Source of the DNA: Thermoflexus hugenholtzii JAD2
GTDB taxonomy: Bacteria > Chloroflexota > Dehalococcoidia > UBA2979
Reading direction: 5' to 3'
Assembly (NCBI GenBank): GCA_945903275.1
Contig: CAMDNW010000012.1
Location: 1 to 57,489, forward strand
Length of the DNA stretch: 57,489 nt
The notes beneath the pieces are model-generated. The model ran no database searches. It was not told the origin of the DNA and saw only the letters and a program-made list of their open reading frames with translations. Below, piece after piece: positions 31,543 to 34,034 of this stretch. Positions within the stretch are counted from its first letter, which is position 1. Every line of letters starts with the position of its first letter. The position numbers and the translations under genes were made by a program.

Positions 31543-31833
31543 ATGTCGTTGACCCCTTCTTCACCTCACTTCTCTATTGCAGTGTCTCGGCCGGTGGCGA
31601 TCCAGAGAGGCCTTCGCGCCCTTGCGAGCCGCATGACGCCAGCGGTGCAGGCGACGGTGGCGGTGGCGGCAACGGGACTGGCGGCCGAGTATGCGCTTCG
31701 TGGGCTAGCGAATCGTGCGTTAGCGATGGTGGCAACGGGGCGCAAACCGCTGCTCCCCTCCGTCGCTGTCGGCCAGCGAGTGGTCGTGACGGAATGGTCA
31801 GTGCGCGAGCAGGTGCGCCGCGTGCGGGCATAG
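31543..31833 (+). CDS. Small Ala-rich protein of unknown function
   Basis: A 96-residue protein with a hydrophobic central stretch (AVQATVAVAATGLAAEYALRG) that could be a membrane helix and a basic C-terminus. No family recognised. The ATG at 31543 has AAGGAG about 7 nt upstream and is preferred to the longer frame from 31429, which overlaps the formyltransferase gene. A TACGCT at 31504-31509 could be a -10 box. rluB starts 2 nt after its stop. Confidence 0.6.
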   Translation: MSLTPSSPHFSIAVSRPVAIQRGLRALASRMTPAVQATVAVAATGLAAEYALRGLANRALAMVATGRKPLLPSVAVGQRVVVTEWSVREQVRRVRA

Positions 31834-31835
31834 TA

Positions 31836-32570
31836 GTGCCTGCTGAACGTCTCCAGAAGATTCTCGCCGCTGCAGGGTTTGGTAGCCGGCGTGGGGTAGA
31901 ACAGGTGATCGTTGCTGGTCGCGTGACCGTCGATGGCCGTGTCGCGACGCTCGGCGAGCGCGCCGATGCAGAAACGCAGCGCGTAGAACTCGATGGCCGG
32001 CCAGTGACCCGACCAGCGGAAACCATCACGTGGATGCTCAATAAGCCTACGGGTTATGTCGTTTCGGCGGCAGACGAGCAGCACCGACAGACGGTGTATG
32101 ACCTTCTCCGGAGGGCTCCGCGCGGCCTGAAGTATGTCGGCCGTCTCGATATCGACTCGGAAGGGCTGCTGTTACTGACGACGGACGGCGAGTTGGCGCA
32201 CCGGCTGACGCATCCGCGGTACGCGGTCTGGAAGACCTACGAGGCAGATGTCATCGGCGAGCCGAACCCTCAGGCGCTGGATCTGCTTCGAGACGGGATC
32301 GAGCTTGAGGACGGGGTCACCGCACCGGCACGCGCCGAGTTGCTCTCCGGCGGGGATCGGTCGTGTGTGCGAATTGCTTTGCGTGAGGGGAAGAAGCGCG
32401 AAGTACGGCGGATGCTGGCCGCCGTTGGGCACCCTGTCACGCGCTTAATTCGAGTCGAGTTTGGTAGTATCCGGCTCGGGATGTTGAGTACTGGCGAAGC
32501 TCGCCCGCTTACCGGAAGCGAGGCTCGAGATTTGGGCGTACTGGTGGGACTTGTGGACGCTAGCGCCTAA
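31836..32570 (+). CDS. rluB: rRNA pseudouridine synthase, RsuA/RluB family
   Basis: A 244-residue pseudouridine synthase. S4 RNA-binding domain about 3-60 (ERLQKILAAAGFGSRRGVE), catalytic domain with the nucleophilic Asp in GRLDIDSEGLLLLT, LNKPTGYVVS upstream and EGKKREVRRML downstream, all typical of RluB (position 2605 of 23S rRNA) or its relatives. The GTG at 31836 gives the usual start and lies 2 nt after the preceding gene; a GTG at 31794 within that gene is rejected. Confidence 0.9.
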   Translation: MPAERLQKILAAAGFGSRRGVEQVIVAGRVTVDGRVATLGERADAETQRVELDGRPVTRPAETITWMLNKPTGYVVSAADEQHRQTVYDLLRRAPRGLKYVGRLDIDSEGLLLLTTDGELAHRLTHPRYAVWKTYEADVIGEPNPQALDLLRDGIELEDGVTAPARAELLSGGDRSCVRIALREGKKREVRRMLAAVGHPVTRLIRVEFGSIRLGMLSTGEARPLTGSEARDLGVLVGLVDASA

Positions 32571-32603
32571 CGCTCTCTATCATCGGCCACCCTGTACCTA
32601 CCC

Positions 32604-32608
32604 GGAGG
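32604..32608 (+). promoter_or_regulatory. Shine-Dalgarno pointing to a non-canonical cmk start
   Basis: GGAGG at 32604-32608 with 6 nt to ATC at 32615. The only nearby GTG (32610) is out of frame and only 1 nt from the GGAGG. Confidence 0.6.
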
Positions 32609-32614
32609 CGTGTC

Positions 32615-33310
32615 ATCTCCTCAGATTCACTTGCCCGTAGCATCGCCATCGACGGCCCAACGGCTTCCGGTAAGAGCGTGGTCGGACGCGCCGTCGCCGA
32701 GCATTTGCGACTTGGGTTCGTAGATACAGGGCTGATGTACCGCACCTGTACGCTAGCGGTGCTCGAGAGCGGCGTTGACCCGCAAGCAGCGGACGCCGTC
32801 ACTGTGGTCGTGCGTGGTCTTGACCTCGATTTGCAGTGGCCAGAACTATCACAACCACATGTCTACCTGAGTGGCGTAGACGTGACTGCGCGGCTGCGCA
32901 CGGTAGAGATCGAGCGTGCGGTTTCATTCGTTTCTGGCATCCCCGAGGTGCGCGATGAACTGGTGCGGCGGCAGCGGGCGTTGGCGGAGCGGTTGCCGAT
33001 CGTCATGGCAGGCCGGGACATTGGGACGCGAGTGTTGGTCGAGGCGCGGACGAAGATATTCCTAGAGGCATCGACAGAGATCCGGGCACGGCGGCGTCTC
33101 GGAGACGAACTCGACTCTAGACGGCAGACGACGTTTGAGCGGGTGCTACAGGAAACGCGACACCGCGATGAGATGGACGATAGTGGCCAACGGGCGCTGC
33201 GGCGCGAGCAGGCAGCACCAGATGCGATTGTGGTCGACACCGACGTGCTCGGCATCGACCAGGTAGTGGAGCGTTGCCTCGAAGCGTACCGGGCAGTCAA
33301 CCCGTCATGA
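32615..33310 (+). CDS. cmk: Cytidylate kinase, apparently starting at ATC
   Basis: A 231-residue CMP/dCMP kinase. The P-loop GPTASGKSVVG is at about residues 14-24, followed by DTGLMYRTCTL, the RAVSFVSGIPEVRD insert, GRDIGTRV and the lid Arg residues (RARRRLGDEL). The first in-frame ATG/GTG/TTG is the GTG at 32678, which lies inside the P-loop and would destroy it. Between the in-frame stop at 32561 and that GTG there is no ATG, GTG, TTG or CTG. A start at ATC 32615 has a well-placed GGAGG and gives SSDSLARSIAIDGPTASGKS, a normal N-terminus. A point mutation or base error of ATG to ATC is the alternative. Confidence 0.85.
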   Translation: MSSDSLARSIAIDGPTASGKSVVGRAVAEHLRLGFVDTGLMYRTCTLAVLESGVDPQAADAVTVVVRGLDLDLQWPELSQPHVYLSGVDVTARLRTVEIERAVSFVSGIPEVRDELVRRQRALAERLPIVMAGRDIGTRVLVEARTKIFLEASTEIRARRRLGDELDSRRQTTFERVLQETRHRDEMDDSGQRALRREQAAPDAIVVDTDVLGIDQVVERCLEAYRAVNPS

Positions 33311-33317
33311 CTCGACC

Positions 33318-34034
33318 GTGAGACGCCTGCTCTACGCATTCGCCTCGATGTTTTTCTATCGCTTCCTTACGGGCCTCACACGCCTCGCCGTCTCACTGAT
33401 GGCGCGGTGGGAGGTGGAGGGCGTGGTTAACGTCCCACGTACTGGGCCAGTAGTGCTGGCGTGCAACCATCTGCATCTGCTCGACCCGTCCCTCGTCGCC
33501 GCCTCGTCACCACGTCAGGTGCATCCGATGGCGAAGAGGGAGTTGTTCGAGACGCCGCTGGTGGGGTGGGCGTTGTGGCCGTACGGTGCGTTTCCGGTGC
33601 GGCGCTTCTCTGCCGACATGGGTGCGCTGCGTGCCGCCCGAAGTCTGCTGCGCCGAGGCGAAGTCGTGATGATGTTCCCCGAAGGGACACGATCGAAAGA
33701 CGCGGTCCTGCATCCAGCCTTGCCGGGCGCGGCGATGGTGGCGCTGCTCGCAGATTCCCCGATCATTCCCGTCGCTGTTATTGGCACCGAAAGAGTGCGA
33801 CTGCCACGGGACATGGCGGGCTGGATGTTCGGTCGGCGACCTCGGTTGCGCGTGGTGTTCGGAGAGCCGTTCCAGCTACCGCGTGGTACCGCTGAGGCGC
33901 GTCACGCGGAGGTGTGCACTGACCTGATCATGCGCCAGATCGCCGCGCTCCTGCCGGAAGAGTATCGAGGAGCGTACGGGTCGGAGAGTGAGGGCAAGGT
34001 CGTCTTTGCCCGGCAGGAGCGCAAGCAGGACTGA
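33318..34034 (+). CDS. plsC: 1-acylglycerol-3-phosphate O-acyltransferase
   Basis: A 238-residue membrane-associated acyltransferase making phosphatidate. NHLHLLDPS carries the NHX4D catalytic motif, FPEGTRSKD the phosphate-binding motif, and PIIPVAVIGTERV the fourth block. An N-terminal hydrophobic helix anchors it. It starts with GTG 7 nt after cmk. The cmk-plsC pair is common. Confidence 0.9.
   Translation: MRRLLYAFASMFFYRFLTGLTRLAVSLMARWEVEGVVNVPRTGPVVLACNHLHLLDPSLVAASSPRQVHPMAKRELFETPLVGWALWPYGAFPVRRFSADMGALRAARSLLRRGEVVMMFPEGTRSKDAVLHPALPGAAMVALLADSPIIPVAVIGTERVRLPRDMAGWMFGRRPRLRVVFGEPFQLPRGTAEARHAEVCTDLIMRQIAALLPEEYRGAYGSESEGKVVFARQERKQD

Follow-up and report, generated by a model that had tools for sequence, protein, structure and literature searches.

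The window analyzed here, a stretch of 57,489 nucleotides, comes from a 1.75-Mb MAG (97% complete) within an order of the Dehalococcoidia (Chloroflexota) and contains, on the forward strand, a gene for (d)CMP kinase, cmk, at positions 32615..33310 (231 amino acids plus a TGA stop). It is preceded by an RluB/RsuA-family pseudouridine synthase gene (31794..32570, forward strand; TAA stop at 32568) that is read in a different frame, and is followed by a plsC-like acyltransferase gene (33318..34034, forward strand) with a GTG start. The cmk product matched TIGR00017 (E = 1.8e-59) and PF02224 (Cytidylate_kin; E = 1.5e-61); its score of 201.1 bits against the NCBIfam model TIGR00017, over model positions 4-216 of 217, exceeded the curated cut-off of 135.55, and with the P-loop GPTASGKS also present, the protein belongs to the (d)CMP kinase family.

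The cmk frame opens after an in-frame TAG at 32561-32563 and then reads CGC CTA ACG CTC TCT ATC ATC GGC CAC CCT GTA CCT ACC CGG AGG CGT GTC ATC TCC TCA GAT TCA CTT GCC CGT AGC ATC GCC ATC GAC GGC CCA ACG GCT TCC GGT AAG AGC GTG. Codon-by-codon reading of positions 32564-32677 found no ATG, GTG, TTG or CTG, as the initial annotation had claimed. The first canonical in-frame codon, the GTG at 32678..32680 (forward strand), directly follows the codons for GPTASGKS and was rejected as a start; the earlier claim that the P-loop is encoded ahead of it therefore holds. Furthermore, within the stop-to-stop ORF the TIGR00017 and Pfam Cytidylate_kin matches begin at residue 26-27, which lies 11-12 codons 5' of this GTG, so that cmk translation must start farther upstream. 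Direct reading placed a Shine-Dalgarno (SD) sequence, GGAGG, at 32604..32608 (forward strand) and an ATC 6 nt 3' of it at 32615..32617 (forward strand), exactly where these had been reported. With no usable NUG codon and one of the codons AUC, AUU or AUA (hereafter AUH) at SD spacing, cmk falls into the AUH (non-NUG) start class, and the AUC at 32615 is almost certainly its real start.

Two other ways of beginning the protein within this region were considered, and both appear very improbable. The first is another non-canonical in-frame start, since an ATC pair at 32579/32582 and an ATC at 32642 also lie in the cmk frame; however, none of these has an SD before it, the upstream pair overlaps or adjoins a -10 element, and the ATC at 32642 lies within the conserved core and would leave almost no N-terminus. 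The second is a canonical start that lies either out of the cmk frame or within the preceding gene, for example the GTG at 32610, which overlaps the region in a different frame, followed by a frameshift into cmk. This GTG stands only 1 nt after GGAGG, however, and the frame would have to be corrected before the P-loop; moreover, the relatives showed nothing equivalent, their cmk frames stand in varying relation to the upstream motifs that contain ATG, and what is conserved is the SD-to-AUH arrangement. A frameshift from GTG 32610 was accordingly rejected on the arrangement found in the relatives.

To place the AUC start in a broader context, the locus was compared across 44 genomes of the order representing 17 genera, all of them MAGs of uncultured organisms, and the cmk start could be read in 37. 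The start codon was ATC in 18 of these, ATT in 6, ATA in 1, ATG in 10 and GTG in 1, with one case ambiguous between ATC and ATG; an SD at normal spacing preceded the assigned starts. An AUH start was thus found in 25 of the 37 readable species and in 14 of the 17 genera. Alignment of the locus in relatives, a check suggested by the initial annotation, showed AUH recurring at the SD-phased position, which in several of the non-AUH species is occupied by ATG; the recurrence in independent MAG assemblies supports the ATC start originally proposed. In a spacing test on 35 genomes of the order, in which the SD was picked without regard to codons, an in-frame ATN stood 4-9 nt after the strongest SD-like run in 30 genomes, compared with ~6 expected from local codon content. 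The codon following AUH specified Ser, Ala, Thr or Pro in 23 of 25 cases (counted by eye), residues that are typical of position 2.

The individual loci differed in how firmly AUH could be assigned. Nine species, including that of the window, have no in-frame ATG, GTG or TTG from the last stop to the IAIDG motif of cmk. In many other relatives with AUH, the frame also holds a canonical codon at some distance upstream, one that no SD fits, and in L027/L028 an ATG follows AUH by four codons; because of these alternative codons, the AUH calls are less certain in the latter two groups. In L002/L031, a congener of the source genome, ATC occupies the same place. In L024 and L117 the start lies ~14 codons farther out, yet is again arranged as GGAGG-N8-ATC, which indicates that the position of the start is conserved whereas the amino-acid sequence around it is not.

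The initial annotation had named a single-base error, ATG read as ATC, as the main alternative. The window does derive from a MAG, but starts of this type are present in 25 species, whose genomes come from separate assemblies and projects and include that of the congener with ATC, so that a consensus error is effectively excluded by the recurrence of AUH in independent relatives. The chance that it accounts for the window is negligible, and at the level of the family the comparison of sequences indicates that the assembly-error reading is already refuted.

Upstream of the start, a promoter scan identified a single sigma-70-like site, TGGACG-18-TATCAT, with a score of 9/12 (0.1 expected from shuffled sequences). 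Its -35-like element, TGGACG (32554..32559, forward strand), lies within the 3'-terminal part of the rluB-type gene, and its -10-like element, TATCAT (32578..32583, forward strand), appears as TATGAT or TATCAT in relatives. The pattern TGGAC-N19-TATNAT recurred, its spacing unchanged, in 15 further distinct members of the order, at varying distances from the cmk start. The frame of the -10-like element relative to cmk differs between species, and the element is therefore not coding; on the same grounds, and because it fits a -10 element, the conserved motif TAT(G/C)ATC upstream of the cmk start, with an ATG inside it in some species, was rejected as a start. From the promoter arrangement, transcription is predicted to begin close to 32590, which would give a 5' leader of ~25 nt, and in many genera cmk is predicted to have a short leader of its own that holds little beyond the SD. 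Folding of the cmk leader RNA showed no excess stability (z = 0.72). Given the short leader and its unremarkable folding, control, if any, is most likely exerted at the start codon itself.

We also examined whether AUH starts are used elsewhere in the source genome. The IF3 gene infC (G000:C18) lies in a frame that opens after a TAG (L128:1471) and begins ATA CCA AAA (L128:1483-1485), with GGAGG preceding the AUA; the genome encodes a two-domain IF3, as evidenced by IF3_N and IF3_C matches that each cover nearly the full domain. Across the order, infC started at AUH (ATC, ATA or ATT; mostly AUC) in 30 of the 30 genomes read, the source genome included. A codon-usage-based screen of a sample of the genome, comprising the window and ten 20-kb stretches (257 kb, 225 ORF calls), recovered only infC and cmk as genes with a strong SD, an AUH start and no canonical alternative, although such a screen is blind to genes with chance canonical codons upstream. 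General laxity in start-codon choice was therefore not seen in the 257 kb screened. A further candidate, pcnB/cca, was set aside: the frame of the PolyA_pol-family gene contains a GTG 41 codons ahead of the domain, so that an AUH start is not required. Two other ORFs were recorded in passing. A ribbon-helix-helix (CopG-like, antitoxin-like) ORF at L195:11386-11622 (minus strand; G000:C15) has neither an ATG, GTG or TTG before the domain nor an SD, and is explained either by leaderless initiation at AUA/AUC or by a frameshift. A GNAT acetyltransferase ORF at L190:1808-2335 (minus strand; G000:C2), in which the domain match begins mid-profile and no canonical start is present, looks like a gene with a frameshifted N-terminus.

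A recoded initiator tRNA was considered and was not supported. In G004, a fully read relative with an AUC cmk start, the initiator tRNA is an ordinary one with a CAU anticodon, GGG/CCC anticodon stem and 1-72 mismatch, and a recoded initiator is thus not needed there. The source genome's own initiator tRNA was absent among 40 tRNA matches and is probably encoded on a missing contig.

The gene infC is the textbook example of an AUH start, and in E. coli the AUU start of pcnB keeps expression low. To our knowledge, conserved non-NUG starts occur in very few bacterial genes, infC alone being widespread. IF3 disfavours weak third-base pairs in vitro (PMC10158994), and the AUU start of infC in E. 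coli and its AUC start in Streptomyces are an established case of autoregulation, IF3 repressing both; the GUC start of sigR in Streptomyces, behind a strong RBS, belongs to a proven IF3-repressed gene (PMC5472188). Like infC of E. coli and Streptomyces, cmk is a lineage-conserved housekeeping gene with AUH behind a strong SD; infC, however, encodes the discriminating factor itself, whereas cmk encodes a nucleotide kinase and its control would operate in trans. With sigR, cmk shares a rare start, a strong RBS and conservation across species in a gene for something other than an initiation factor, but sigR uses GUC/GUU rather than AUH and encodes a stress sigma factor, and its repression by IF3 is experimental. 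The parallel with pcnB is that of another gene related to RNA metabolism, although it is a different gene in a different phylum. A search of one literature library returned no paper linking cytidylate kinase or cmk to a non-AUG or noncanonical start.

On these precedents, the strong SD at optimal spacing would bring the 30S subunit to the AUC at 32615, where a normal CAU initiator tRNA would pair through the first two bases, so that the protein would begin with Met; the third-base mismatch would make initiation weak and liable to be rejected by IF3. Since the infC genes of these genomes have AUH starts as well, cmk is probably throttled by IF3, and its output should follow IF3 availability, being low when IF3 is ample and higher when ribosomes outnumber IF3. 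The level of CMP/dCMP kinase would in this way be coupled to the IF3-to-ribosome ratio, and the biological reason may be to hold down CMP/dCMP recycling or to co-adjust it with translation capacity. It is from infC, pcnB and sigR that we infer the low efficiency, the repression by IF3 and this biological reason. The earlier hint of infC-like control is strengthened by the AUA start of infC here and the AUH starts throughout the order. Taken together, cmk is probably translated from AUC 32615 and kept low under IF3 discrimination, as are infC, pcnB and sigR; that the start is IF3-sensitive in vivo, as any AUH start is, appears likelier still.

Whether AUH is maintained for regulation rather than tolerated is a separate question, on which we regard the chances as about even. 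The AUH start may be real and yet non-regulatory if little Cmk is needed and a weak start behind a strong SD is tolerated, the codon drifting among AUC, AUU, AUA and AUG. Species with ATG are scattered through the tree, and the near-identical pair L023 (ATC) and L026 (ATG) differs at the same start position; the ATG in ten species and the GTG in one mean that AUH is dispensable for cmk. On the cmk tree, whose weak backbone support and long branches do not allow a precise history to be claimed, a minimum of 4 changes was needed for the AUH/canonical trait and a minimum of 10 for the five codon states; thus AUC, AUU and AUA were exchanged among themselves several times while the start stayed AUH. 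These changes show no clear avoidance of G, and the interchange of C, T, A and G at the third base is not in itself proof that AUG is selected against. On the other hand, 14 of the 17 genera have kept AUH even though a single mutation would give AUG, and almost no other gene of the sampled genome starts at AUH except infC, which is autoregulated elsewhere. We consider tolerated drift clearly less likely than regulated use of the AUC start. An order-wide IF3 regulon in the Dehalococcoidia, in which CMP/dCMP kinase and IF3 would be co-regulated by matching AUH starts, and which would cover pyrimidine nucleotide recycling from RNA turnover and have been kept through the order's diversification, can be proposed tentatively, its probability falling slightly short of even.

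With these results, cmk becomes a second essential-pathway gene with an order-conserved AUH start, a property shared with infC, and the occurrence of AUH in both points to a use of IF3 discrimination in setting the levels of metabolic genes. They further suggest that the start rules of gene finders mis-call cmk throughout the lineage, such that the P-loop is lost or a false N-terminus is added.

Outside the order, in sister families and other phyla, cmk had canonical starts insofar as visual inspection allowed a reading. One MAG labelled Gammaproteobacteria, L045, carries a cmk that groups, on long branches, with genus g10 of the Dehalococcoidia order, and is probably mislabelled or mis-binned. 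At the betaproteobacterial loci L084, L089, L095 and L100, AroA seems to continue in frame from its C-terminus into Cmk, which resembles the known bifunctional aroA-cmk fusion.
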